Shown: positions 339-19,729 of the stretch, piece after piece | Layout of the letters: each line of letters starts with the position of its first letter | Numbering within the stretch: position 1 is the first letter of the stretch | Assembly (NCBI GenBank): GCA_026983755.1 | Contig: JALSTL010000036.1 | Coordinates: 1-19,729, forward strand | Reading direction: 5' to 3' | Length of the DNA: 19,729 nt | DNA from: Melioribacteraceae bacterium | GTDB taxonomy: Bacteria > Bacteroidota > Ignavibacteria > Ignavibacteriales > Melioribacteraceae | Notes under the pieces: model-generated | What the model saw: only the letters and a program-made list of their open reading frames with translations | What the model was told of the DNA's origin: nothing | Databases searched by the model: none | Translations under genes and position numbers: made by a program

Positions 339-2300
339 ATGAAAAAATTTATATTAACATATTTTTTAATTATTTTTTTAAGTATATCTAATTTTGCAAA
401 ATATATAAAACCAAATATTATTATCAATAATGAAATATATTTCCGTAACATTTCCACAGCACCAATCAGCAATGGAAATCAAAAAAAATTACTTCCGAAA
501 GTTCCTAAAAACGTAATGGCAAAGGGCTATGAAAAGCATATAGAAATTACATGGTCTCGTAATGTTTATGATAACACCTTTCAATATAAAATTTACAAAT
601 TGATAAATTCCGTTTATACTTTAATAGGCAAAGTTAACTCTAATAATTCCAGTTATATTGATTTTATTGGTGCGAAAGGAATTACGGCGTCATATAAAGT
701 TTCGGCAATCGATAAGGAAAAGAACGAATCCGAAAAAAGTAACGAAGCCGTTGCAACAACAATTAGTATGACCGATAAAGATTTTCTGGATATGGTACAA
801 AAATATACGTTTAAATATTTTTGGCAATATGCACATCCGGTTTCGGGTTTAATTAGAGAAAGAACAGGTTCCGGAAATACTTGTACAATTGGAGGTACGG
901 GTTTTGGAGTAATGGCCATTATTGTGGGAATTGAAAGGGGATTTATTAGCAGAAACCAAGGAGCTGGAAGAATTAAAAAAATTGTTGATTTTTTACAGAA
1001 TAAAGCAGATAAATTTCACGGAGCATTTTCACATTGGATTGATGGAAGTACAGGCAAAGTAATACCGTTTAGTAAATACGATAACGGCGGTGATTTGGTT
1101 GAAACATCTTTTTTAATTCAAGGATTGTTAACTGCCAAACAATATTTTACTAACAATAACAATACGGAAGTAGCAATTAGAAATTTAATTACAAATATTT
1201 GGCAAAATGTTGAATGGGATTGGTACAAACGTTCAACGAACAGTAATTTTTTATATTGGCATTGGTCACCTAATTATAATTGGAAAATGAATTTTAAAGT
1301 TCAAGGCCCTAACGAAACAATGATAACTTATCTGCTTGCCATAGCATCGCCAACACATTCTATTCCTGCAAGTTTATATTATAAAGGTTGGGCAAGTTCT
1401 CCTAAATATAAAAACGGTAAAACATTTTATGGTTACAGGCTTGATGTTGGATGGGATTACGGCGGTCCGTTATTTTTTGCGCACTATTCGTTTTTAGGTT
1501 TCGACCCCAGAAATAAAAAAGATCAATACACTAATTATTTTAAGAACAACAGAAACCACACTTTAATAAATAGAGCATACTGTATTGATAATCCCAAAAA
1601 TTTTTTGGGTTACAACGATAGTACATGGGGGTTAACGGCAAGTGACGATCCTTGGGGATATTTGGCTCACGAACCGAACGGAAATAAAGATAACGGCACT
1701 ATTACTCCATCGGCATCTTTATCTTCATTTCCATATACGCCGGTTGAATCTTTGCAAGCATTGAAAAATTTATATAGAAATTACGGAAATAAAATTTGGT
1801 CGGAATATGGATTTACCGATGCATTCAATCCTCAAAAAAATTGGTATTCCGATAGTTATTTAGCTATAGATCAAGGTCCTATTATTATTATGATTGAAAA
1901 TTACAGGTCCGGATTATTGTGGAAACTTTTTATGAAAAATCCCGAAATACAACCTATGTTAGATTCAATTGGGTTCGTAAAAGATTTAACCGATGTAAAT
2001 GCTAAAAAAAAAAAATTATTAAAAATTTTTCTTCAACAAAATTATCCTAACCCGTTTAATCCGTCAACAACAATACAATATACAATACCATCAGAGACGT
2101 TGCATGCAACCTTTCAATATGTGCAATTAAAAATTTACGATGTTCTTGGTAAAGAGATTACAACATTAGTAAATGAACGAAAAAAACCCGGTAGTTACAA
2201 AATAAATTTTAATGCGGAAAATCTTGCAAACGGCGTTTATTATTATCGTTTAACAAGAGGGGAAAACTCAATAACAAAAAAAATGATTATACTAAAATGA
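339..2300 (+). CDS. T9SS-exported GH144-type endo-beta-1,2-glucanase (PF10091 glucoamylase-like family)
   Basis: This is a probable surface endo-glucanase. Residues 1-20 are a signal peptide (lysines, then a hydrophobic core). Residues about 52-142 look like a fibronectin type III domain. Residues about 147-545 match the PF10091/GH144 (alpha/alpha)6-barrel family: GGTGFGVMA near 185, WHWSPNYNW, NETMITYLLAIASPTH ending near 340, HYSFLGFDPR at 382-391, TASDDPWGY from 433 and GPIIIMIEN from 513. Residues about 563-653 are a T9SS type A sorting domain with QNYPNPFNPSTTIQY, which predicts export across the outer membrane and attachment to the surface. Characterised GH144 enzymes cleave beta-1,2-glucan; the linkage used here is inferred from family. 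The next gene starts 21 bases downstream, so it probably heads the sensor operon. A run of 12 A at 2004-2015 separates the catalytic and sorting domains. Confidence 0.85.
   Translation: MKKFILTYFLIIFLSISNFAKYIKPNIIINNEIYFRNISTAPISNGNQKKLLPKVPKNVMAKGYEKHIEITWSRNVYDNTFQYKIYKLINSVYTLIGKVNSNNSSYIDFIGAKGITASYKVSAIDKEKNESEKSNEAVATTISMTDKDFLDMVQKYTFKYFWQYAHPVSGLIRERTGSGNTCTIGGTGFGVMAIIVGIERGFISRNQGAGRIKKIVDFLQNKADKFHGAFSHWIDGSTGKVIPFSKYDNGGDLVETSFLIQGLLTAKQYFTNNNNTEVAIRNLITNIWQNVEWDWYKRSTNSNFLYWHWSPNYNWKMNFKVQGPNETMITYLLAIASPTHSIPASLYYKGWASSPKYKNGKTFYGYRLDVGWDYGGPLFFAHYSFLGFDPRNKKDQYTNYFKNNRNHTLINRAYCIDNPKNFLGYNDSTWGLTASDDPWGYLAHEPNGNKDNGTITPSASLSSFPYTPVESLQALKNLYRNYGNKIWSEYGFTDAFNPQKNWYSDSYLAIDQGPIIIMIENYRSGLLWKLFMKNPEIQPMLDSIGFVKDLTDVNAKKKKLLKIFLQQNYPNPFNPSTTIQYTIPSETLHATFQYVQLKIYDVLGKEITTLVNERKKPGSYKINFNAENLANGVYYYRLTRGENSITKKMIILK
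2004..2015 (+). repeat. A12 homopolymer inside the GH144 gene, at the domain boundary
   Basis: Twelve consecutive A encode K556-K559, directly between the catalytic domain and the T9SS sorting domain. Reading the sequence with 11 A gives a stop three codons after the tract (AAT TAT TAA); with 13 A a stop comes 12 codons after the tract. Either slip would yield an intact enzyme without its export and anchoring signal. Confidence 0.6.
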
Positions 2301-6793: not shown

Positions 6794-9046
6794 ATGAAAA
6801 CACAAAAATTGCTTCTCTTAATCTTTTTTCTTAATACAACATATTTAATTTTCTCACAACCCTATAAAAATCCGAATATTAACATTGAAAAGCGAATTAA
6901 CGATTTGTTAAGTAGAATGACGTTAAAAGAAAAAATAGGACAAATGCAACAATACAATTTCTGGAAATTGGACGATGCAACATTAAAAAAAGTTACGGAA
7001 GGGAAAGTAGGTTCGTTCCTAAATGCAAGTAATAAGAAAGACAAAATAAAATTACAAAAAGCGGCAATAGAAAAATCCAGATTAGGAATTCCTTTGATTT
7101 TCGGTCGGGATGTGATACATGGTTATAAAACCATTTTACCAATTCCTCTGGGAGAAGCGGCAACATGGAACCCCGAACTTGTAAAAAAAGGAGCGGAAAT
7201 TGCCGCTCAAGAAGCAACGGAAAATAATATTAACTGGACGTTTGCTCCGATGATAGATATTGCACGAGATCCGCGTTGGGGAAGAATTGCGGAATCTTGC
7301 GGCGAGGATCCTTTTTTAGCTGGAACTATCGGGGCTGCAATGATTAAAGGTTTTCAAGGAAATAATCTTAATGATAATAGTACTATTGCAGCCTGTGCAA
7401 AACATTATGTTGGTTATGGAGCTGCCGAGGGCGGTAGAGATTATAATACTACTTTAATACCCGAAAGAGAATTACGCAACGTGTATTTAAAAACTTTTCA
7501 AACCGCCGTTAATTCCGGTGTTGCTACTTTAATGAGTGCTTTTAACGACTTAAATGGAGTACCTGCTTCCGGAAATAAATTTACTCTGAAAAAAATTTTA
7601 AGAAACGAATGGAACTTTAACGGATTTGTTGTAAGTGACTGGGAAGCTATAAGTGAGATGATAAAACATGGCTTTGCAAAAGACGGCAATGAAGCTGCTT
7701 TTAAAGCAGTTGATGCCGGTGTTAATATGGAAATGGTATCTGAAAATTATGCCAATTACTTGGAAAAACTTATAAACTCTCATAAAGTTAACGGTAGATG
7801 GATAGATACGTTAGTTGCCGGAATTTTAAGAATTAAATTTAAATTAGGATTGTTTGATACACCGATAAATAGTAAACCCGTATCAGAATTCTTACCTGCT
7901 CAAAATAAACAAATTGCGAAAAGTATTGCAACCGAAAGTATAGTAATGCTCCAAAATAAAAATAATACTTTGCCATTAAAAGTTTCAGAAATAAATAGCT
8001 TAGCGGTGATCGGTCCTCTGGCAAATTCACCTAAAGCTCAAATGGGTACATGGACGTTAGACGGCAACCCCAAAGATGTTATTACTCCGTTAAATGCAAT
8101 AAAAAGTGAGTACGGTAAAAAATTAAAAATTTATTATTCAAAAGCAATGGAATCTCCTCGCAGTACAAATAAAAAACTCTTTAAGAAAGCTATCCAAACG
8201 GCAAAAAAATCCGATGCTGTACTTTTATTTCTTGGTGAGGATGAAGAATTATCCGGAGAAACCCATTGCAGAGCATTTTTGAATTTACCCGGGGCTCAAG
8301 AAAACTTAATTATAAAACTTTCCAAATTAAACAAACCCTTGATTCTAATAATTATGGCGGGACGACCATTAACTTTTGGAAATATAACTAATAAAGTAAA
8401 TAGCATTTTATATGCATGGCATCCCGGTACAATGGGTGGAGAAGCAATATCTGATATTATCTTTGGAAAAACATCACCCTCCGGTAAACTTCCCGTAACT
8501 TTTCCAAGAACGGTAGGACAAATACCTCTTTACTATAATCATAAAAATACGGGAAGACCACCATCACCTAATCAATTGGGACGTGTGCTAGGAACTCCTG
8601 TAAATCCTAAAGGATATGCCAGTTACTATTTAGATGTTGATTATACTCCGGCCTATTATTTTGGTTACGGAGAATCATACTCCAGTTTTAATTATTCAGA
8701 TCTAACTTTATCGAAAAAAATAATTGATTTCAATGATACATTAAAAGTATCGGTAATAGTTAAAAACACGGGTAAATATAAAGCTAAAGAAACAATTCAA
8801 CTTTATATTAGAGATTTGTATGCAAGTGTTACAAGACCTGTTAAAGAACTTAAAAGATTTAAGAAAGCGGAATTTATTCCAGGGGAAACCAAAACCATAC
8901 ATTTCAAACTAACTGTTGACGATTTTAAATTTTACGATATAAACATGAAATATAATGCCGAACCTGGTGATTTCGTATTGTTCGTTGGTAGTTCTGCAAA
9001 TGATAAAGACTTATTAAAATCGAATTTTACATTAACTAAGTATTGA
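6794..9046 (+). CDS. bglX: Periplasmic GH3 beta-glucosidase-type glycoside hydrolase
   Basis: This GH3 enzyme has 750 residues, the usual length for BglX-like beta-glucosidases. A signal peptide (about residues 1-21) ends at the IFSQ boundary. The order is a TIM-barrel domain with MTLKEKIGQMQQ, FAPMIDIARDPRWGRIAES, and KHYVGYGAAEGGRDYN (K203-H204), and the nucleophile D282 in GFVVSDWEA. The alpha/beta sandwich follows, with probable acid/base E489 in ELSGETHCRAF and the LILIIMAGRPLT strand. A fibronectin III-like C-terminal domain covers about 655-745. There is no T9SS sorting domain, so the enzyme should remain in the periplasm and remove glucose from imported oligosaccharides. The exact linkage preference cannot be read from the sequence; GH3 members in beta-1,2- and beta-1,3/1,4-glucan loci look alike. 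It is the first gene after the sigma-54 promoter. The gene symbol is a family-level label. Confidence 0.92.
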   Translation: MKTQKLLLLIFFLNTTYLIFSQPYKNPNINIEKRINDLLSRMTLKEKIGQMQQYNFWKLDDATLKKVTEGKVGSFLNASNKKDKIKLQKAAIEKSRLGIPLIFGRDVIHGYKTILPIPLGEAATWNPELVKKGAEIAAQEATENNINWTFAPMIDIARDPRWGRIAESCGEDPFLAGTIGAAMIKGFQGNNLNDNSTIAACAKHYVGYGAAEGGRDYNTTLIPERELRNVYLKTFQTAVNSGVATLMSAFNDLNGVPASGNKFTLKKILRNEWNFNGFVVSDWEAISEMIKHGFAKDGNEAAFKAVDAGVNMEMVSENYANYLEKLINSHKVNGRWIDTLVAGILRIKFKLGLFDTPINSKPVSEFLPAQNKQIAKSIATESIVMLQNKNNTLPLKVSEINSLAVIGPLANSPKAQMGTWTLDGNPKDVITPLNAIKSEYGKKLKIYYSKAMESPRSTNKKLFKKAIQTAKKSDAVLLFLGEDEELSGETHCRAFLNLPGAQENLIIKLSKLNKPLILIIMAGRPLTFGNITNKVNSILYAWHPGTMGGEAISDIIFGKTSPSGKLPVTFPRTVGQIPLYYNHKNTGRPPSPNQLGRVLGTPVNPKGYASYYLDVDYTPAYYFGYGESYSSFNYSDLTLSKKIIDFNDTLKVSVIVKNTGKYKAKETIQLYIRDLYASVTRPVKELKRFKKAEFIPGETKTIHFKLTVDDFKFYDINMKYNAEPGDFVLFVGSSANDKDLLKSNFTLTKY

Positions 9047-9197: not shown

Positions 9198-11858
9198 ATG
9201 AGAAAATTTTTTTTACTTTCTATATTTTTTTTCATTGTGTCGGTAACTTCGGCACAATGGGTATTAGAACCATTCGATAATGCAGTTGGAAATACCTGGC
9301 CGGATACGGCTTCAACAGAATTAAATTCCAGATATATGTTTGCAAACGGTGCATCTGCTTTTGTTCATTTATTCAATGAAACGGATTCAAAAGATGGAAA
9401 CGGTTCTATGAAATTGGATTATAAAGTACAAGCATCGGATAGTTGGGGGGGATATAGTGTGATAACTTCATACTTGGCAGATAGCATTTCAGATAAACCA
9501 TATATTGATCTTTCAGCCGGAACGGAATTAAGTCTTTGGTATAAAATTGTTACACCGGTAAGTATGACTCAAAACGGGGATATTTTTTCTGAAATAAAAC
9601 TTGCCGAATACGATAATAACGGGAACAGAGATCTTTGGGTTTATAAAACAACAATAAAACATTCGGATAATTCCGGCGAATGGATAAATATTAAAATACC
9701 CCTAGTACAATCAGATGATAAAACCACAGGTTTTGCATTGCAATTTGGAGAAGGAGACGGAGAGCTTCAGTTTGACAAAATAAAAGGTTTCGAAATTACA
9801 TTTGTTTATATAACTTCAGGCAATAGTGATAATCCACCTTCTGCCGAAGGTTCGATACTTATAGACAAATTGCAACTTTTAGGTACCAGATATACACCGC
9901 TTCAAACATTTGATACTGCTGTAGCCGATTCTTTCTTTGTAGTTGACACAATGAGTTGGGCTGGTAGCGGAGCAGGTAGTTCGGTTTTATCCGATAATAC
10001 CACGGATTTTGTTGAAGGATCCGGTTCTTTTCAATGGGATTATACAATAAATGCATCTCAAAGTTGGGGCGGTTATGTAAGAATTACACCTGCAAACCCT
10101 ACTCCAATTGACACTCTACAAGAAAGAACGGCTTTAGTTTTATATATAAAAAATTTGGTACCGCAATCCGGTACGGCAAATAGAGTATCATTTAGATTTA
10201 CATTGGTAGAGAATAATACCGGTGAAGATGAATGGTGGACATGTGAAGTACCCATAAAACTTAGTGAAGCTTCGGAGTGGACAAGATATTATTTACCTTT
10301 GAGAGAAAGACCTGTTTACAATGATAGTATTTACGGCGGTCCAGGTCATAACCATTTTCCGTCAGACGGGTTTTCTCAACCCTGGTGGGAATCGAAAGGG
10401 GATGGTGTTTTTAATCCAGAATCGGTTAAAGAATGGCATGTTACACTTTCGGCCGGAGATCCAAGTTATGGACCTCAAGGGGAAAAATTAAGCGGTACAT
10501 TACTTTTTGATGTATTTCAACAATCGGGATTCCAATATTCAGATAATACACCTCCGGATGTTCCGTCTGATATTGCCGTTGTTGCAGGCAATTATTCGAA
10601 TTTAATTACTTGGAAAGATGTTCCCGGAGAAGAAGGTGAAAAATATAATGTTTATTATAGTACTAAACCAATTTCCGATATAAACGCCGAAGGTGTGGAA
10701 GTGGTTCAATTAGGTGTTGAAGAAAATGTTCAAGTGGTTGAACATGTTTTGCTGTCGCCTTCAACGGATCAAGAAGTAACTTATTATTATGCAGTTAATG
10801 CTGTTGATAAAGTTGGCAATGTAGGTACGCCTGGTGCAACGCAAGCAATAACCAACACAGCTAAAGGAACAACTACCATATCAATGGTTGCACCAACAAA
10901 TTTTACCGCAGATGGTGATTTAAGTGAGTGGGCTGGAATTACACCGTTTAGAATATTTCCATCCGATGGTAGCGGTACAGTTAAAACGGGAACTACCATT
11001 GACGGAGACGATGATTGTTCTGCCGAAGCTTATGTAGCAATTCAAGATAATTACCTATATGTTGCATTTAATGTAAATGATGATGTTGTACACCACGAAG
11101 AATCATGCGATTCTTGGTCTAGTGATTCACCTGATTTATTAATCGGATTGTATAATTGGCACGGTACACCGCATACGGATTATCAACGTGGTAGTCAACC
11201 AGATTATCATTTGAGGTTCGGAAAATATCTTGCACGAAGCGATCATTGGAGTAATCCGAATGATTCCTTATTAATAAGCGGTACCGAAAATTACATTTGG
11301 AAAGAAAAATTTACAGGCGGTTATACGGTAGAAGCTAAAATTCCTTTTGCCGATTTGGCAAGTACAAAAGATACAATCCCAACAATCAAAGAGGGATTTA
11401 GAATACCAATCGATTTTGTTATTAACGATAATGATAATAAAAATCCCGACGGACAATGTTGGCAAAGAAGAGAAGGTATTTTAACATATTCACCGCGTAA
11501 TCAAGACCAAGGCTGGAAAGATGTTTCCGTTTGGTCTTATACATGGTATGGTAATAAATGGATTGTTTCGGCTAGAGATAACAAACAAGTAAAAAATGTT
11601 TATTCCTTGTCGCAAAATTATCCGAATCCGTTTAATCCTACTACAACAATCAAATATTCAATTGCAAAAACCGGTAAAGTCTCAATAAACATTTATAATT
11701 TACTTGGGCAAGAAGTTGCTCAATTAGTAAATAAAGTACAACCTGCAGGAAATTACTCGGTGAATTTTGATGCGACAAAATTATCTACCGGTATTTATTT
11801 TTATCAGATAAAAAGCGGTTCTTTTAAAAAAGTAAAAAAAATGTTATTGGTGAAATAA
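9198..11858 (+). CDS. T9SS-exported multi-domain carbohydrate-binding surface protein
   Basis: This 886-residue protein has a signal peptide (about 1-19, ending TSAQ). Two related beta-sandwich, CBM-like units follow (about 21-230 and 235-445); they share the motif G-S-x-x-x-D-Y-x-x-x-A-S-x-S-W-G-G-Y near residues 68-90 and 274-296, a sign of internal duplication. A fibronectin type III domain lies at about 452-550. Then comes a CBM9/DOMON-like domain (about 560-795), with FTADGDLSEWAG, YLYVAFNVNDD and GGYTVEAKIPFADL, of the kind found in secreted cellulose- and xylan-binding proteins. The end (about 803-886) is a T9SS sorting domain with QNYPNPFNPTTTIKYS. No catalytic domain is evident. By position between GH3 and the TonB receptor, it probably acts as a surface glycan-binding protein. 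Ligand specificity is unknown. Confidence 0.78.
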   Translation: MRKFFLLSIFFFIVSVTSAQWVLEPFDNAVGNTWPDTASTELNSRYMFANGASAFVHLFNETDSKDGNGSMKLDYKVQASDSWGGYSVITSYLADSISDKPYIDLSAGTELSLWYKIVTPVSMTQNGDIFSEIKLAEYDNNGNRDLWVYKTTIKHSDNSGEWINIKIPLVQSDDKTTGFALQFGEGDGELQFDKIKGFEITFVYITSGNSDNPPSAEGSILIDKLQLLGTRYTPLQTFDTAVADSFFVVDTMSWAGSGAGSSVLSDNTTDFVEGSGSFQWDYTINASQSWGGYVRITPANPTPIDTLQERTALVLYIKNLVPQSGTANRVSFRFTLVENNTGEDEWWTCEVPIKLSEASEWTRYYLPLRERPVYNDSIYGGPGHNHFPSDGFSQPWWESKGDGVFNPESVKEWHVTLSAGDPSYGPQGEKLSGTLLFDVFQQSGFQYSDNTPPDVPSDIAVVAGNYSNLITWKDVPGEEGEKYNVYYSTKPISDINAEGVEVVQLGVEENVQVVEHVLLSPSTDQEVTYYYAVNAVDKVGNVGTPGATQAITNTAKGTTTISMVAPTNFTADGDLSEWAGITPFRIFPSDGSGTVKTGTTIDGDDDCSAEAYVAIQDNYLYVAFNVNDDVVHHEESCDSWSSDSPDLLIGLYNWHGTPHTDYQRGSQPDYHLRFGKYLARSDHWSNPNDSLLISGTENYIWKEKFTGGYTVEAKIPFADLASTKDTIPTIKEGFRIPIDFVINDNDNKNPDGQCWQRREGILTYSPRNQDQGWKDVSVWSYTWYGNKWIVSARDNKQVKNVYSLSQNYPNPFNPTTTIKYSIAKTGKVSINIYNLLGQEVAQLVNKVQPAGNYSVNFDATKLSTGIYFYQIKSGSFKKVKKMLLVK

Positions 11859-11868
11859 AATATTTAAC

Positions 11869-11900
11869 TGCTAACCAACTCAAATAACTGTTGGTTAGCA
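11869..11900 (+). repeat. Perfect 11-bp intergenic hairpin between the surface protein and the TonB receptor
   Basis: TGCTAACCAAC (11869-11879) and GTTGGTTAGCA (11890-11900) are exact reverse complements around a 10-base loop. The hairpin starts 10 bases after the stop codon at 11858 and ends 32 bases before the ATG at 11933. No T-run follows, so it is not a classical intrinsic terminator. It could stabilise the 3' end of the upstream message, attenuate the receptor genes, or be an operator. Confidence 0.75.
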
Positions 11901-11932
11901 AATACTTAACAAAAACCAAACAAGCAGTGATT

Positions 11933-14659
11933 ATGAATTTTTTTAAGTTAAGCATATTTGAAAATCCATTAAAAAAAATTTCAAAAACTTTTGTTTTTGC
12001 TATATTCGTACTTATTTTTTTTAATACGGTTCTAAAAGCCGGTACAACCGGAAAGATTGTTGGGAAAGTTATTGATAAAGAAACGGGCGAACCTTTAATA
12101 GGTGCAAATATTCTTGTTAAAGGAACATACTTCGGAGCGGCAGCTGATATGGAGGGGGAATTTATGATACCTAATATTCCGCCCGGTAAATATATTGTTG
12201 TAATATCTGCTGTTGGTTATCATAAAGTTACTATAAAAAATGTGTTGGTTAAAATAGATTTGACAACCAATGTTGGAACCGTTAAAATTTCGGAAGAGGC
12301 AGTGAATATGGATGTTGTGGTTGTAAAAGCGGAACAACCAATGGTTACCAAAGATTTAACCTCTACTTCCGCAATTGTTACATCCGATCAAATAAAAGCT
12401 TTACCTGTAGATAATTTTCAACAAGTTGTTAATCTTCAAGCCGGGGTTGTTGACGGACATTTTAGAGGGGGTAGAAAAAATGAAGTTGCCTATCTAATAG
12501 ATGGTGTTGCCGTAAACGATGCATTTAATGGTGCCCTTAGTGTTGAAGTAGAAAATAACTCGATTGGTCAACTTGAAGTTATAAGTGGAACTTTTAATGC
12601 CGAATACGGACAAGCAATGTCCGGTGTAGTAAATATTATTACTAAAGACGGGGGAATTAATTATGAGGGGAGTGTTTCGTCGTATATGGGAAATTACTTT
12701 ACGAACGCAACCGACATCTTTCTGAACTTAAACAAAATAAACCTTAGTGGTCCGAAAGATTTCAGATTTAATCTAAGCGGACCTGTTAAAATATTAAAAA
12801 ATTTATCATTCTTCGTAACCGGTAGATATTTTGCCGATGACGGATATATGTATGGTAAAAGAGTATTCTTGCCTTCGGACGAAGCTCCGGTTTTTCCGGA
12901 CCCGAGTAATTTTAACTATTTTGTATTAAAACCTTCCGGTAATGGTGAATATGTACCTATGAATCCTAACAAAAAAAAATCATTTAATGGCAAACTTACC
13001 TATAGTATTCCCGAATGGAAGTTTACCTATAGTATTTTTTGGGATGATAACTGGAATAAATTTTATAATCATTCATTTAAATTGGTTCCGGACGGTATAA
13101 AAAATCATTATCGTACTAATACGATTCATTCATTTCAAATTTCTTGGTATCCGTCTAAAGTAACTCTTTCAACGTTAAAATTTTCACATAACTATAATAA
13201 CTACAAAGGATATCTATATGAAAACCCGTTGGACCCCCGTTATGTTGATGTTTCCAAAGGAGCACCCATTTCCGAATATACTTTTCGAACTGGTGGAAAT
13301 GAAGCAGATAGATACCATCGCTTTACAAAGTCAACTATTGCTCAATTAACTTTAGAATCCCAAATTTCAAAAAAACATAAAATTAAAGCAGGGCTCGAAG
13401 GAAGATTTCACGAAATATTTAATTCTTGGAAAACTTTAAGAAATTTTACCGAAGGTCAACGCGATGAAAACGGAAATTTGATTTATCATTTGGGTTATAG
13501 CGATCCGGGAACCAAGTATAATCAAATTTATACAAGTAATCCTTATGAATTTTCCGCATATATTCAAGATAAAATGGAATACGATATTATGATAATAAAT
13601 GCAGGTATTAGATTTGATTATTTTAATTCTAATACAACTCTTCCCATTGATTTAAGAAATCCGTTAAATAATCCTAATTTCCCTGGTGCAAATAAAAAAA
13701 GAAAAGCTAAAAGTCAGTACCAAATTAGTCCCAGATTCGGTGTTTCTTTTCCAATGTCCGATAAAGGAGCAATACATTTTTCGTACGGACATTTTTTTCA
13801 AATTCCGTCTTTTAGTAATTTATATGAAAACAATAGATATATAATAGACCAAACAAGTTCTCCACAATCTTTTGTTGGCAATCCGGAACTAAAAGCACAA
13901 AAAACAGTAAAGTATGAACTTGGATTACAACAAGTAATATTTCCTAACGTTTCTTTGGATGCATCAATATATTATAGCGATATTAGAAATTTATTAGGCT
14001 CGGAAATAAAGGAAACATACGAAGGATTTTTATACGGAAGATATGTAAACAGAGATTATGGAAATGTTAAAGGTCTTATTATAACTCTAGATAAAAGATT
14101 TGCGAATTATTTTAGTGCAAAAATAGACTATACATATCAAGTTGCTGCCGGAAATGCGTCTGATCCTCGTACTGTTTTTTTTAACAGCCGTTCAGATCCT
14201 CCGGTAGAAACCACTAAAAAAGTTGTTCCTCTTAATTGGGATCAAACTTCCACACTTAATGCTGCAATTAATGTAGGTCAACCAGGGAATTGGACACTAG
14301 GTTTAATTTTCGGTTATGGCTCCGGTATGCCATATACGGAAGATCCCCGTTATTCCAAAGGTTTAAGATTTGAAAACGGAGGAAGAAAACCGAGTTATTT
14401 CAATGTGGATTTACGTGCTAACAAACAATATAATTTGTACGGAATAAAAATAAATACCTTTTTAATTGTATATAATTTGTTAGATATTCAAAACGAATTT
14501 GGGGTTAGTCCAACTACCGGAAGAGCCGGTGTGGATTTAAATGCCGAAGCTTATACGGGAAAAATATTCGGGTTAAATACAATTGCCGAATACTTAAGAA
14601 ATCCTGCAAACTATTCAAGACCAAGACAAATAAATATTGGATTTAGTATAGGGTTATAA
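11933..14659 (+). CDS. TonB-dependent receptor with N-terminal carboxypeptidase-regulatory-like domain
   Basis: This outer-membrane transporter has 908 residues from the chosen ATG. A TTG 42 bases upstream is in frame, but it lies within a hairpin arm and would add 14 residues before the signal peptide, so ATG at 11933 is preferred. Residues about 1-36 form a long signal peptide. Residues about 40-125 are a CarboxypepD_reg-like beta-sandwich (GKIVGKVIDKETGEPLIGAN) as in SusC-type receptors. A plug domain follows (LPVDNFQQVVNLQAGVV, YLIDGVAVNDAF, LEVISGTFNAEYGQAMSGVV), then a beta-barrel to the end (RQINIGFSIGL). It should import glucan oligosaccharides using TonB energy. No SusD homologue is next to it; a large exported protein follows 20 bases downstream. 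Confidence 0.9.
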   Translation: MNFFKLSIFENPLKKISKTFVFAIFVLIFFNTVLKAGTTGKIVGKVIDKETGEPLIGANILVKGTYFGAAADMEGEFMIPNIPPGKYIVVISAVGYHKVTIKNVLVKIDLTTNVGTVKISEEAVNMDVVVVKAEQPMVTKDLTSTSAIVTSDQIKALPVDNFQQVVNLQAGVVDGHFRGGRKNEVAYLIDGVAVNDAFNGALSVEVENNSIGQLEVISGTFNAEYGQAMSGVVNIITKDGGINYEGSVSSYMGNYFTNATDIFLNLNKINLSGPKDFRFNLSGPVKILKNLSFFVTGRYFADDGYMYGKRVFLPSDEAPVFPDPSNFNYFVLKPSGNGEYVPMNPNKKKSFNGKLTYSIPEWKFTYSIFWDDNWNKFYNHSFKLVPDGIKNHYRTNTIHSFQISWYPSKVTLSTLKFSHNYNNYKGYLYENPLDPRYVDVSKGAPISEYTFRTGGNEADRYHRFTKSTIAQLTLESQISKKHKIKAGLEGRFHEIFNSWKTLRNFTEGQRDENGNLIYHLGYSDPGTKYNQIYTSNPYEFSAYIQDKMEYDIMIINAGIRFDYFNSNTTLPIDLRNPLNNPNFPGANKKRKAKSQYQISPRFGVSFPMSDKGAIHFSYGHFFQIPSFSNLYENNRYIIDQTSSPQSFVGNPELKAQKTVKYELGLQQVIFPNVSLDASIYYSDIRNLLGSEIKETYEGFLYGRYVNRDYGNVKGLIITLDKRFANYFSAKIDYTYQVAAGNASDPRTVFFNSRSDPPVETTKKVVPLNWDQTSTLNAAINVGQPGNWTLGLIFGYGSGMPYTEDPRYSKGLRFENGGRKPSYFNVDLRANKQYNLYGIKINTFLIVYNLLDIQNEFGVSPTTGRAGVDLNAEAYTGKIFGLNTIAEYLRNPANYSRPRQINIGFSIGL

Positions 14660-14679: not shown

Positions 14680-17600
14680 ATGTTGAACAAAAAAATTTAC
14701 TGGGTTTTTATTCTTATTTATGCAAATATTGTATTTGCACAAGTTAATCCTAATATACAAAAATATAGGGAAGAAGAATACGGAGATAAAACATATCGTA
14801 AAAAAGGAATAATGGATGGCAATCTTGTAAGAACCATATTTAGAAATGATGGACAGGTAGGGGCTTGGCCGGATAGACCTTCGGGGGAATGGCCTAAAGG
14901 AACAGGCCATAATTATCTTGACGGGTTAACACCTATTATTTCAGCTTCCGTAAAAGCTCCTGGCAATAATCAGTTGGTTCATCCTGCAATTACATCTTAC
15001 AGAGAAGAAGTAGATTTCGATCCGGTTACAAATCAACTTTGGGTTGTTGAACCTGTTCCCGGTTATGCCTCACCGGAATCGGAAGAACCTGCAATTAGTA
15101 CAAAACCGAAAACATGGCCGGAATTTTGGCCGAGAGCTTTGCCTAATATAGATGAAACTTGGGATGGATATTGGTATGGTTATTTTGGACGTGGTGTTCA
15201 GAATGCCGATTTTGAAACTTTTTATGTTATGGATGATTCACAAGATAAAGAATTTAGTCGTCCACCTTATCAATATTATCCTATTGCTTCGGATTCTAAC
15301 CGTAGTGGACTTGGTTTGCGCATTGAAGTTCGTGGTTTTCAATGGTCTCATGTTTTGGCCGAAGATATTATTTTTTGGCATTTTGACATCATTAACCTTT
15401 CGGATAATACATACGATACAACTTATTTCGGATTTTATAGTGATACGGGAGTTGGCGGTGTTAGCGATAATGGTGATGATAATGCTTCTTATAATACAAA
15501 ACTTGATATTGCTTATGCTTTTGATGCCGACGGAGTTGCACCTCCGGAACAATGGAAAACCGGCTATGTTGGTTATGCTTATCTAGAAAGTCCAGGTAAC
15601 TCGTTAAACGGAATTGATGATGACGAAGACGGCATGATTGACGAAAGAAGAGATGACGGTATTGATAATGATGGCGATTGGGTAGGTTTTTCGGATTTAA
15701 ACGGTAACGGGAAATGGGACGCTGATGAAAATGAACCGCTGAATAATGATCTTGGTGTTGATGGTGTTGGACCATTTGACCCGCAATATAATGGCCCTGA
15801 TTTAGGTGAAGGTGATGGTAAACCTACCGAGGGTGAACCCAACTTCGATAAAACCGATAAAGACGAATCCGATCAAATAGGACTTACAAGTTTGGCAATA
15901 GAGAGATTATCCAATAAAGGCCCCAATTCAATTTGGCCTAAAAATGATGAAGTAATTTGGAAAACTATGGCAGGGCATGTTTTCGATACATCGTTGACAA
16001 ATGCGAATATACAAATTCTTTTCGGTTCAGGTGGTTTTCCGTTAGAAGTAAACCGGCGTCAAAGATTTTCGGTTGCTCTTGTTTTCGGAAACGATTTGGA
16101 AGATATGATTTTTAATAAAGAAACAGTTCAACAAATTTATAATGCAAATTATAATTTTGCCAAACCTCCTTTAAAACCAACACTAAAAGCTGTTGCTGGT
16201 AATAAGAAAGTGTTCTTATTTTGGGATGATGTTGCAGAGCATTCAAGAGATCCTTTTTTAGGTTATGAAAATGGAGACCCCAGATTAGGATTTAAAAAAG
16301 ATTTTGAAGGATATCTTTTATACAGAAGTGAAGAGCCTGAGTTCAATGATATTAAAGTCATAACAGATTCCAAAGGCGAACCTAAATATTGGAAACCTAT
16401 TGCACAGTTCGATCTAATCGATAGCATTACCGGGCCCGACCCGATAGGCATTAATGGTGCTCACTTTTGGCGAGGCAGCAATACAGGCTTACAACATTCA
16501 TTTATTGATACCAATGTTGTTAATGGTAAAACATATTACTATGCTTTGGTTGCTTATGATCAGGGAGATCCTAATTTCGGTACAAAGGGTTTGATTCCCT
16601 CGGAAACCACTAAGATTATTACTGTAGATTTGGTTGGTAATGTAAAATTTATTGACATAAATTGTGCGGTTGTAACACCTAATGCACCAACTGCAGGATA
16701 TGTACCGCCAGAAATTAATGGAGACCTTAATAATGTAAACGGTATAGGTACAGGCAATATTCAAGTAGCCGTTTTAGATCCGAATGTAATAAAAAATAAT
16801 GCAACTTATACTATCTTGTTTGATTCCGAAGGTGATATACCTTTCTATAGAACTGTTTCATATTCTATCTTGCGTTCTATAAACGGAAAAGTTGATACAT
16901 TGGAATCTTACATAGACTCTACAAGTATTGGTAGCGGTAAATTTAGTCCGCCTTTCGACGGTTTATCCGTTGTTGTTAAAAATGATACGGCAGTTGCAGT
17001 TGATCAAGAAAAAACCGGTTGGATTGTTGGGTTTGCAAATTTGAATATGGCGGTTACTCCCGATAATAGCAGTCCTGCGCGTAACATTGCCTGGCCAGCA
17101 GATTATGAAATTGATTTTTTGGAAGAGAGATCGGTTACAACACCTTTTAACAAAATCAAAGTGCCGTTTATAATAAAAAATTTATCAAGAGGAGATACTG
17201 TTCAAGCGGAAATCATTGATAACAATAATAATAAAACTTTTGATTTAGGTGATGATATTGTAATAATAGAGTATATCGGTTCCAGTTATAAATTGACTTG
17301 GAGAATAGGGTATAATCATTCAACTACTGCTCCAATAGATGCATTCCCGGTTGCGGGTGATAAATTTTTAATTAAAACGAGAAAGCCATTCAACAAAGGA
17401 GATTATTTTACTTTTAAAACTCTTGCAGCTAAAACCGATTTAAAACTTGCTAAAAACGATTTGAAAAAAATAAAAGTAGTACCTAATCCTTATGTTAGTG
17501 CTGCAAGTTGGGAAACAAGAAATTTAAATCAAGAAGGAAGAGGTAACAGACGAATAGACTTCATTCACTTACCAGCAAAATGTACAATTAGAATTTATTC

Positions 17601-17775
17601 AATAACCGGTGCTTTGATTAAAACATTAAAAAAGGATACAGGAAGTACAGACGGTTCGTTAAGTTGGAACTTGGTATCGGATGACGGTATGGATATTGCC
17701 TACGGATTATACGTTTATCATGTTACCGCACCGACAATAGGCGAATATATTGGTAAATTTGCGGTTATTAAATAG
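14680..17775 (+). CDS. Large exported protein with acidic Ca-binding-like repeats and VVPNPY C-terminal domain; possible receptor partner
   Basis: The function of this 1031-residue protein is not established. It has a signal peptide (about 1-20, ending FAQ), a long aromatic-rich N-terminal region with DETWDGYWYGYFGRG, and an acidic stretch at about residues 311-400 made of D-x-D-x-D-G units (GIDDDEDGMIDE, GIDNDGDW, DLNGNGKWD) resembling thrombospondin type 3 or dockerin calcium loops. A fibronectin-like region covers about 497-640 (FEGYLLYRSEEPEF), followed by further beta-rich sequence. The last 100 residues start with KIKVVPNPYV and end YGLYVYHVT...GKFAVIK, a T9SS/FlgD-like C-terminal domain of a variant type. 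A GGAG site 5 bases before the ATG supports the start. It lies between a TonB receptor and a PorV-like protein, so it may be a surface or extracellular glycan-binding partner filling the place of SusD (inference). Confidence 0.6.
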   Translation: MLNKKIYWVFILIYANIVFAQVNPNIQKYREEEYGDKTYRKKGIMDGNLVRTIFRNDGQVGAWPDRPSGEWPKGTGHNYLDGLTPIISASVKAPGNNQLVHPAITSYREEVDFDPVTNQLWVVEPVPGYASPESEEPAISTKPKTWPEFWPRALPNIDETWDGYWYGYFGRGVQNADFETFYVMDDSQDKEFSRPPYQYYPIASDSNRSGLGLRIEVRGFQWSHVLAEDIIFWHFDIINLSDNTYDTTYFGFYSDTGVGGVSDNGDDNASYNTKLDIAYAFDADGVAPPEQWKTGYVGYAYLESPGNSLNGIDDDEDGMIDERRDDGIDNDGDWVGFSDLNGNGKWDADENEPLNNDLGVDGVGPFDPQYNGPDLGEGDGKPTEGEPNFDKTDKDESDQIGLTSLAIERLSNKGPNSIWPKNDEVIWKTMAGHVFDTSLTNANIQILFGSGGFPLEVNRRQRFSVALVFGNDLEDMIFNKETVQQIYNANYNFAKPPLKPTLKAVAGNKKVFLFWDDVAEHSRDPFLGYENGDPRLGFKKDFEGYLLYRSEEPEFNDIKVITDSKGEPKYWKPIAQFDLIDSITGPDPIGINGAHFWRGSNTGLQHSFIDTNVVNGKTYYYALVAYDQGDPNFGTKGLIPSETTKIITVDLVGNVKFIDINCAVVTPNAPTAGYVPPEINGDLNNVNGIGTGNIQVAVLDPNVIKNNATYTILFDSEGDIPFYRTVSYSILRSINGKVDTLESYIDSTSIGSGKFSPPFDGLSVVVKNDTAVAVDQEKTGWIVGFANLNMAVTPDNSSPARNIAWPADYEIDFLEERSVTTPFNKIKVPFIIKNLSRGDTVQAEIIDNNNNKTFDLGDDIVIIEYIGSSYKLTWRIGYNHSTTAPIDAFPVAGDKFLIKTRKPFNKGDYFTFKTLAAKTDLKLAKNDLKKIKVVPNPYVSAASWETRNLNQEGRGNRRIDFIHLPAKCTIRIYSITGALIKTLKKDTGSTDGSLSWNLVSDDGMDIAYGLYVYHVTAPTIGEYIGKFAVIK

Positions 17776-17790
17776 TCCGGAGAAATTAAA

Positions 17791-18825
17791 ATGAAATTTT
17801 CTTTCAAAATAATTACCATTACATTTTTTTTGTTTTCGCAAATATATGTTTTTGCACAACAGATTGTTACTAATGTTTCCAAAAAAGGGACAACAGCAGC
17901 ATCCTTTTTATCAATAGGACAAGGAGCCAGAGCAACTTCTATGGGCAGCGCTTTTGTAGCAATGGCAGATGATAGAAGTGCAATTTACTGGAACCCGGCA
18001 GGAATATCGGATTTGCAAAGTGCCGGTGTGTTGGTTGAGCATACTAATTGGATTGCAAATGTAAATTATAATTTTTTAGCCGCAACTTATTCATTAGGTA
18101 ATTTTGGTACTATTGGTCTTAGTTTCACTTCCTCTAGTATTCAAGATATGGACGTTACAACTATAGAAGAACCCGATGGAACCGGGGAAACTTATTCGGT
18201 TAGTGATATTGCCTTCAGTGTTTCCTATTCAATTAAATTAACTGATAAGTTTTCTATCGGTTTTAATCCCAAATTTATTCATCAAAAAATATGGCGTATG
18301 TCTGCCAGTGCTTTGGCAATTGATCTCGGGGTTAAATATGTTACTCCCTTCGATGGTATTGTTTTAGGCATGAGCATATCTAATTTCGGAACATCAATGA
18401 GAATGGAAGGGAAATCAGCTTTGGTTTTATATGATCCCGATCCTCAAACTACAGGTAACAATGGTAAAATTCCCGCCTTTTTACAAACGGATAATTGGGA
18501 ATTACCTTTGAATTTTAGAGTTGGAATTGCATACAAAATTTTAAATACCAAATTGCATGGTCTTACCATAGCAGTTGATGCACTTCATCCCAGTGATGAT
18601 TACGAAAGTGTAAATATTGGTGCGGAATATAATTTTAATGACCTTATTTTTTTTAGAGCTGGTTATAAATCTCTGTTTTTAAATTCTTCCGAAGAGTCTT
18701 TTACACTTGGTATAGGATTTAAACAATTACTATTGGGAAATTTAGCACTGAAAGTTGATTATGCTTATGAAGATTTCGGCAGGCTTTCAAATATTCAAAA
18801 ATTTTCTTTAAGTATTTTATTTTAA
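17791..18825 (+). CDS. PorV/PorQ-family outer-membrane beta-barrel protein
   Basis: This 344-residue protein has a signal peptide (about 1-22, ending FAQ) and the PorV/PorQ family N-terminal signature: GTTAASFLSIGQGARATSMG, then AFVAMADDRSAIYWNPAGIS, a FadL-like start, followed by alternating beta-strands ending KFSLSILF with a terminal aromatic residue typical of barrel assembly. In the type IX system, PorV binds the C-terminal sorting domain of cargo and carries it to the attachment complex. Here the gene is 15 bases after a sorting-domain-like protein (GGAG site 8 bases before ATG) and just before an exported GH16 enzyme. It may be a locus-specific PorV paralogue serving those cargos, or the single genomic copy; this cannot be decided from the window. 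Confidence 0.85.
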   Translation: MKFSFKIITITFFLFSQIYVFAQQIVTNVSKKGTTAASFLSIGQGARATSMGSAFVAMADDRSAIYWNPAGISDLQSAGVLVEHTNWIANVNYNFLAATYSLGNFGTIGLSFTSSSIQDMDVTTIEEPDGTGETYSVSDIAFSVSYSIKLTDKFSIGFNPKFIHQKIWRMSASALAIDLGVKYVTPFDGIVLGMSISNFGTSMRMEGKSALVLYDPDPQTTGNNGKIPAFLQTDNWELPLNFRVGIAYKILNTKLHGLTIAVDALHPSDDYESVNIGAEYNFNDLIFFRAGYKSLFLNSSEESFTLGIGFKQLLLGNLALKVDYAYEDFGRLSNIQKFSLSILF

Positions 18826-18841
18826 CAATATATAGTTATAA

Positions 18842-19729
18842 TTGAAACAATTAAATATTAAAATATTATTAATTATATTTTTTGCTTTTATTATTTTATC
18901 TGCTTATTCATTTGGAAAAAATTATAAAGGAGCGGAAATAATCTCAACTCAAACCTATAAATACGGCAGATTCGATGTTAAATTTAAACCCGCGAACAGA
19001 GAAGCCGTGGTTTCTTCTTTTTTTACATTTTACCACTGGTTAAGCGGTGGTATATCAAATTGGAATGAAATTGATATTGAAATTGTAGGTAGATACAAAA
19101 ATAATATACAGTTTAATGCAATAACACCCGGACGGTCATTTCACATCAGAAGTCAATATATAGATTTTGATGCGTATGTAGATTTTCATGAATATGGGTT
19201 TGAATGGACTCCGGATTATGTTGCATGGTTCATAGATGGAAACGAGGTATTTAGGCAAACCGGCGAACATATTAAAACTTTGGTACATCCCCAAAATATT
19301 GAGATGAATTTGTGGATTCCCGAATATACAAATTGGGTGGGATATTTTAATGATTTATATTTACCGTTGACAGCAAAATATGATTGGGTAAAATATTCTT
19401 CTTATACACCCGGCAACGGAAGTTATGGTACGGATAATAACTTTACACCACAATGGAAAGATGAATTTGAAACTTTTGATTCTACAAAATGGGAAATATC
19501 AACAGGAACTTTTCAAGGAAACTTGGTGGACTTTGTATCGGAAAATGTTATAATACAAAACGGGTTGTTAAATCTTTTTATTACTGATGCCAATAACACC
19601 GGAGATGTGGATAACAATCCTCCAAGTATAATTTGGGCAAGAGCAAATTATGATAAATCAATTACAATTCAATTTTCGGAAGAGATAGAAAAATCTTCTG
19701 CCGAGAATATTGCCAATTATATAATTTCA
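18842..19729 (+). CDS. Circularly permuted GH16 beta-glucanase (lichenase type), 5' part only
   Basis: The gene begins at a TTG directly after an in-frame TAA and is open to the right edge (296 codons). No ATG precedes the domain, and TTG is the only start that keeps the hydrophobic signal peptide (about 1-24). The GH16 core starts at once with YKGAEIISTQTYKYGRFDVKF, then VVSSFFTFY, the catalytic EIDIE (E76 nucleophile, D78, E80 acid/base by family), HEYGFEWTPDYVAWFIDG and MNLWIPEYTNWVGYF. A linker of the type YTPGNGSYG follows. Residues 205-248 (WKDEFETFDSTKW... to NGLLNLFIT) are the strands that normally open the domain. From about 253 an Ig-like Big_5/SbsA domain begins. Predicted substrate is beta-1,3-1,4- or beta-1,3-glucan. 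A T9SS domain is expected beyond the window. Confidence 0.85.
   Translation, partial: MKQLNIKILLIIFFAFIILSAYSFGKNYKGAEIISTQTYKYGRFDVKFKPANREAVVSSFFTFYHWLSGGISNWNEIDIEIVGRYKNNIQFNAITPGRSFHIRSQYIDFDAYVDFHEYGFEWTPDYVAWFIDGNEVFRQTGEHIKTLVHPQNIEMNLWIPEYTNWVGYFNDLYLPLTAKYDWVKYSSYTPGNGSYGTDNNFTPQWKDEFETFDSTKWEISTGTFQGNLVDFVSENVIIQNGLLNLFITDANNTGDVDNNPPSIIWARANYDKSITIQFSEEIEKSSAENIANYIIS

Follow-up and report, generated by a model that had tools for sequence, protein, structure and literature searches.

A naturally circularly permuted GH16 protein, probably a lichenase-type glucanase, in a Melioribacteraceae bacterium, and its relatives in several phyla

The 19,729-nucleotide stretch of Melioribacteraceae bacterium DNA analysed here (contig JALSTL010000036.1 of assembly GCA_026983755.1; hereafter the window) ends in a forward-strand open reading frame (ORF; 18842-19729) that starts with TTG, encodes 296 residues and is still open at the window end. 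Judged from its sequence, the product is a naturally circularly permuted GH16 protein with its two blocks in the order A-B, block A being the C-terminal part of the domain in canonical enzymes and block B the N-terminal strands. It is very probably a secreted lichenase-type endo-beta-glucanase (GH16 subfamily 21-like) with a jelly roll permuted by nature, and it belongs to a family spread over several phyla. Permuted GH16 is a known kind of protein, the Fibrobacter succinogenes enzyme being cited as a natural circular permutant, and the window protein is an added member. The parts of the gene are as follows:

18842..18916, forward strand: likely signal peptide (residues 1-25), from the translation, a hydrophobic leader, a helix at 2-23 in the structure model and the 10-40 residues that mostly precede the GH16 block in relatives
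18917..19402, forward strand: GH16 block A (residues 26-187)
19067..19081, forward strand: catalytic EIDIE (residues 76-80)
19403..19438, forward strand: linker YTPGNGSYGTDN (residues 188-199), connecting the canonical C- and N-termini
19439..19588, forward strand: GH16 block B (residues 200-249)
19625..19729, forward strand: start of an Ig-like region (residues 262-296), ending with the window, with model strands at 263-268 and 274-278

Block order was read with hidden Markov models (HMMs) built from 76 canonical-order proteins, with no permuted sequence included and with boundaries derived from matches to window-seeded models. Each of these HMMs matches the window protein once, with A first: block A at residues 26-185 (independent E-value (iE) 8.8e-50, 164.7 bits) and block B at residues 200-248 (iE 3.7e-15, 51.6 bits), the best scores in 1000 shuffles of the protein being 7.9 bits (A) and 7.4 bits (B). 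This bears out the permuted order that the original prediction had drawn from five motifs, all of which lie where it placed them (YKGAE 28-32, EIDIE 76-80, YTPG 188-191, WKDEF 205-209 and NGLLNLFIT 240-248). The start that it gave for the gene, 18842, also holds, whereas the proposed end at 19590 falls short, since the gene goes on past that point and past the window end. Membership of GH16 follows from a Pfam PF00722 match of 87.4 bits (gathering cut-off 22) at residues 27-159, covering profile positions 28-158 of 175; coverage of part of the domain is expected when a canonical model meets a permuted protein.

The strands around residues 205-248, whose place in the fold had been proposed as a check on the permutation, are part of a domain in the structure model (201-207, 236-239 and 242-249) that can be superposed over its whole length on the F. 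succinogenes structure, and this domain is predicted to close as one jelly roll. The chain would start in the loop before YKGAE and run through the catalytic EIDIE strand and the remainder of the canonical domain; the YTPG linker would then lead from the canonical C-terminus over to the canonical N-terminus, and the canonical N-terminal strands would finish the domain. The F. succinogenes 1,3-1,4-beta-D-glucanase (PDB 1mve, 1zm1, 3axd) shares the block order, the cut loop, the catalytic E-x-D-x-E and, in the model, the whole-domain fold, and the linkers are similar, both with YTPG (YTPGNGSYGTDN in the window protein, YTPGQGEGGSD in F. succinogenes), in agreement with the likeness to this enzyme proposed in the original prediction. 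The window protein differs from it in sequence (about 35% identity), in having Gly at the W203 position and, unlike the F. succinogenes glucanase, in having close relatives with malectin and type IX secretion system (T9SS) parts. The closest known systems also include circular permutants engineered from Bacillus lichenase (1cpm, 1cpn). Canonical GH16_21 licheninases (e.g., 1gbg, 3wvj) share the catalytic EIDIE, the sequence of block A and the fold, but have the block order B-A. The closest canonical sequences found are the Myxococcota lichenase-like L027, L032 and L041 and their kin (P0241 etc.), whose block B is near the permuted ones; these three loci have the canonical order and stop just past block A, with no tail.

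In the F. succinogenes enzyme, the residues aligned with E76, D78 and E80 are E56, D58 and E60, a numbering consistent with the V18Y, W203Y, F40I and E85I named in PDB titles; the columns of E76, D78 and E80 are invariant in a 49-sequence alignment. We take E56 and E60 to be the nucleophile and the acid/base of that enzyme and, by homology, assign these roles to E76 and E80. The GH16_21 subfamily is recognized by a catalytic E-x-D-x-E without an inserted residue, the form that EIDIE 76-80 has. Eight tryptophans (54, 105, 112, 141, 148, 165, 186 and 198) are retained relative to the F. succinogenes enzyme, as are EIDIE, W74, F61, Q90 and N92. In GH16_21 a Phe is described as the -1 subsite platform (Phe-92 in the available part of PMC6827312); F61, which aligns with F. 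succinogenes F40, may occupy that position. Whether ranked on sequence or on fold, the top PDB matches of the window protein are 1,3-1,4-beta-glucanases, and endo-1,3-1,4-beta-glucanase is, judged from the family, the most likely activity. The enzyme, probably exported, would hydrolyse the beta-1,4 bonds of mixed-linkage beta-glucan through a retaining mechanism, with E76 as nucleophile and E80 as acid/base; GH16_21 is characterised by cleavage of these bonds alone.

The part of the protein beyond the window end can be judged from relatives. P0003 (614 residues), 76% identical to the window protein over 294 aligned residues, has after its GH16 domain a malectin domain (364-498) and FlgD-like and secretion-tail matches, including a T9SS tail (PF18962, 27.2 bits, cut-off 27; TIGR04183, 35.3 bits, cut-off 23); the window protein stops earlier. 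The model of the L001 protein (613 residues; pLDDT 90.5) is mostly beta structure beyond GH16. In a search restricted by length, malectin (PF11721) stands alongside PF00722 in 117 of the 120 proteins listed of 547. Big_5 (PF13205) is a precomputed match in the relatives P0077 and P0127, and neither the window protein nor P0003 gave a Pfam Ig match. Close full-length relatives carry a probable Ig-like region, then malectin and a T9SS tail; the Ig-like domain of the original prediction fits this layout but is an incomplete account of it, with malectin and the T9SS tail following. These parts make it probable that the window enzyme is exported. The last 34 residues of the window protein (263-296; window 19628-19729) are identical to P0003, and a repeat of two paralogues may have broken the assembly there.

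The permuted lineage extends beyond Fibrobacterota, as the original prediction had supposed, and spans several phyla. Scanning genome contigs yielded 42 loci, 28 of them permuted, 3 canonical by both blocks and 11 with block A only. The block HMMs classified 386 proteins as 302 A-B (284 distinct cores), 67 B-A and 17 A only, a ratio of A-B to B-A that is no frequency because the proteins were gathered with two permuted queries and one canonical query. The A-only set consists of proteins of short length, a KSB1 copy that is broken, and Bacillota or alphaproteobacterial enzymes whose block B the model missed. Genome surveys counted near-full matches, running from residue 11 or earlier to at least residue 211 of a 228-residue permuted query; the groups are named from the record titles of the centre genomes, which were picked for a GH16 match, so that the rates are biased. 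Near-full matches (genomes with any match in parentheses) were found in 29/296 genomes of the phylum sample around the Melioribacteraceae genome (43), 19/149 of its class sample (20), 17/40 Calditrichota (17), 45/149 Neomarinimicrobiota (45), 25/82 KSB1 (30), 2/299 Pseudomonadota (29), 1/235 Myxococcota, with two copies (8), 1/151 Chlamydiota, also with two copies and the sole genome with any match, and 0/299 Bacillota (13). Fibrobacterota are represented by the F. succinogenes PDB sequence and by P0183, named Chitinispirillaceae by its source, a family that we take to belong to this phylum. Of 70 plasmid records that matched, none did so over more than 80% of the query, and the best 20 of the 70 cover 45-60%; with only part of the query covered, no permuted copy was seen on plasmids among the matches listed. 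We infer a family mostly of Fibrobacterota, Bacteroidota in the wide sense, Calditrichota, KSB1 and Marinimicrobia that has occasionally been transferred to other groups.

Several of these copies have features of their own. The KSB1 copy at L030:6001-6550 seems broken, its match falling in two pieces and no block B being found in the ORF. In Neomarinimicrobiota, the permuted GH16 of L019 and L022-L026 is preceded by an added N-terminal stretch, and the C-terminal part looks dockerin-like by eye. Both myxococcal copies end in a MYXO-CTERM sorting signal above the cut-off (21.4 and 23.8 bits; cut-off 20), which argues against contamination; their genome, G010, holds the two permuted copies (L043:1419-2645 and L044:2079-3422) and a canonical-order copy (L041:16-882). 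Permuted and canonical-order lichenase-like genes also occur together in G290 (L095), where they lie about 8 kb apart on one contig, G908 (L091, L099) and G909 (L092). The two permuted genes of a Chlamydiae metagenome-assembled genome (L028:629-2065 and L042:5443-7053) have ankyrin repeats after the domain. In both copies from the Pseudomonadota sample, L105 and L106, block B follows block A (E-values for B of 1.6e-18 and 7.2e-22); they are Fibrobacter-type permuted GH16, L106 with an additional C-terminal region.

Some observations weigh against the assignment of the window protein. The NCBIfam BglS equivalog NF047856 scores 150.2 bits, below its curated cut-off of 300, with residues 21-187 matched; the malectin and T9SS part is deduced from P0003 and L001, the window protein being incomplete; and F. 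succinogenes W203, Y42, N44 and E85 are replaced by G222, F63, H65 and Q105, so that substrate fit may differ. The differing substrate-site positions speak for the same permuted fold acting mainly on xyloglucan, beta-1,3-glucan or some glucan other than mixed-linkage glucan, as do the malectin of relatives and the neighbouring PF10091 and CBM9 proteins, which suggest a broader glucan locus. We consider this rather unlikely, given that the closest solved relatives are 1,3-1,4-beta-glucanases and that EIDIE, W74, F61, Q90 and N92 are retained. The permutation itself could be an illusion of gene structure, A-B being the visible middle of a duplicated gene with two tandem or trimmed GH16 domains; tandem duplication followed by trimming is a usual route to permutation. 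Yet a hydrophobic leader directly precedes block A in the ORF, and P0003 ends in malectin and T9SS parts with no second GH16. A second N-terminal block, named beforehand as a sign of tandem domains, was looked for with the canonical-only HMMs: the window protein has one block B, and more than one was found in 0/299 permuted proteins with both blocks. The tandem-domain reading was rejected on these counts, and we regard it as highly improbable. B-A-B or A-B-A intermediates were found neither among the 386 classified proteins nor among the GH16 ORFs of later loci (44 AB, 17 BA, 4 A only and 1 none at E 0.01, duplicates included). An assembly chimera or frameshift in one metagenome contig might be suspected from the fact that the window protein breaks off, where the window ends, inside the stretch identical to P0003, but its probability is close to nil, the A-B order being present in independent genomes (such as the Calditrichota and Neomarinimicrobiota counted above) and in a crystallised protein.

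The origin of the permutation was addressed with trees of the concatenated blocks, for which 25/297 permuted cores and 25/74 other cores served as representatives. Tree 1 (55 rows) held these 50 and 5 more permuted loci; tree 2 (53 rows) was without the long rows L039 and P0327; tree 3 (57 rows) took in 12 new rows and left out L024, L039, P0327, the chlamydial L028 and L042, P0267, P0266, P0259, P0273 and P0307; tree 4 dropped P0281, L098, L093, L094, L031 and L043 too and took in 8 rows, with more canonical and Cytophagales ones; and tree 5 (67 rows) restored 8 dropped rows. In tree 4 the 35 permuted rows form one clade (95/96; in 96% of 200 bootstrap trees), which, on rooting with Bacillota, lies inside a paraphyletic canonical set and is sister to a 13-row canonical clade, with L027, L032 and L041 named Myxococcota. 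One permuted clade is not rejected in the three other sets tested (approximately unbiased (AU) p 0.184, 0.311 and 0.132 for trees 2, 3 and 5). We infer that the multi-phylum family is best explained by a single permutation in a canonical lichenase. Counting against a single event, the order label needs two changes in trees 1, 2, 3 and 5, where one permuted clade appears in 0, 2, 26 and 0% of 200 bootstrap trees; tree 4 was the fourth tree made, after pruning, and has the sole row set giving one clade; and the one clade obtained from block A only is unsupported (64/54). Trees 1, 2, 3 and 5, with long rows or fewer canonical relatives and no single permuted clade, would fit a permuted order that goes far back in a group of phyla around Fibrobacterota, Bacteroidota, Calditrichota, KSB1 and Marinimicrobia and that switched more than once, either by repeated permutation at the same loop or by myxococcal canonical enzymes re-permuting back from a permuted ancestor. 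We judge this improbable, in view of the AU results, the one clade recovered without the long rows and the cut loop common to the permuted rows. In trees 4 and 5 a subclade (100/99) unites F. succinogenes, P0183, the myxococcal copies, both Pseudomonadota-sample copies, L103 and P0206, a mixture of phyla that indicates transfer between them, in either direction. The chlamydial pair has no settled position in tree 5.

The genes upstream of the permuted gene include the following:

339..2300, forward strand: PF10091 'Glycoamylase' domain protein with T9SS tail
6794..9046, forward strand: GH3 beta-glucosidase, BglX-like (PF00933/PF01915; NF011678 694.7 bits, cut-off 666)
9198..11858, forward strand: CBM9 protein with T9SS tail
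11891..14659, forward strand: TonB-dependent outer-membrane receptor with CarboxypepD_reg-like N-terminus, a conserved neighbour
14680..17775, forward strand: 1031-residue protein without a Pfam family, a conserved neighbour
17791..18825, forward strand: PorV/PorQ-family outer-membrane protein (NF033709 228.9 bits, cut-off 90), a conserved neighbour

A solute-binding protein, a histidine kinase and a sigma-54 response regulator also lie upstream on the same strand. L001, L002 and L004-L008 have the TonB receptor, 1031-residue and PorV-family genes upstream of the permuted gene. All three are missing from L003; only the 1031-residue and PorV-family genes occur in L009, L014 and L015 and only the PorV-family gene in L011, there lying some way from the GH16 gene. 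A PorV-like gene is present in 9/10 loci L045-L054, although the proteins of L045 and L048 are those of L001 and L002 again. In L002, L004-L009 and L011 the permuted gene is followed by a GH3 gene, and L012 and L016 have the kinase/regulator pair upstream; in L017-L026 these neighbours were not found, except for a GH3 match in L023. Together, these neighbours suggest that some members of the permuted family sit in a beta-glucan utilisation locus, in which the TonB receptor would take up oligosaccharides and the GH3 beta-glucosidase would finish them. The PF10091 domain is presumably linked with GH144 beta-1,2-glucanases, which would widen the locus beyond mixed-linkage glucan. The end of the 1031-residue protein matches a T9SS sortase model below the cut-off, and in several Ignavibacteria its gene keeps its place next to those of the TonB receptor and the PorV-like protein.

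A 2003 study by Tsai et al. is reportedly tied by its title to the structure of the F. succinogenes 1,3-1,4-beta-D-glucanase. It is in the reference lists of PMC2395249, PMC4606783, PMC12571822 and PMC3281007, as given in the available parts of these papers. The available part of PMC2395249 names 'some bacterial beta-glucanases' as natural permutants, a plural suggesting that more than one natural case may be in print, whereas the main text of PMC6827312, on GH16 subfamilies, has 'permut' and 'Fibrobacter' 0 times in its available part. No account of a wider permuted lineage was found among the titles and abstract openings searched, a weak negative given the thin coverage of subscription journals. 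The Pfam and NCBIfam models match block A only, so that annotation hides the permutation. What is added here is the presence of the permuted GH16 family in several phyla, with a canonical-order clade nearby. If the order did switch more than once, block order in the GH16 domain would be evolutionarily labile rather than a single accident. The 284 distinct permuted cores and the canonical relatives, alignable in both blocks, provide material to place the event on the tree, to seek the ancestral order and to compare folding and activity before and after permutation.
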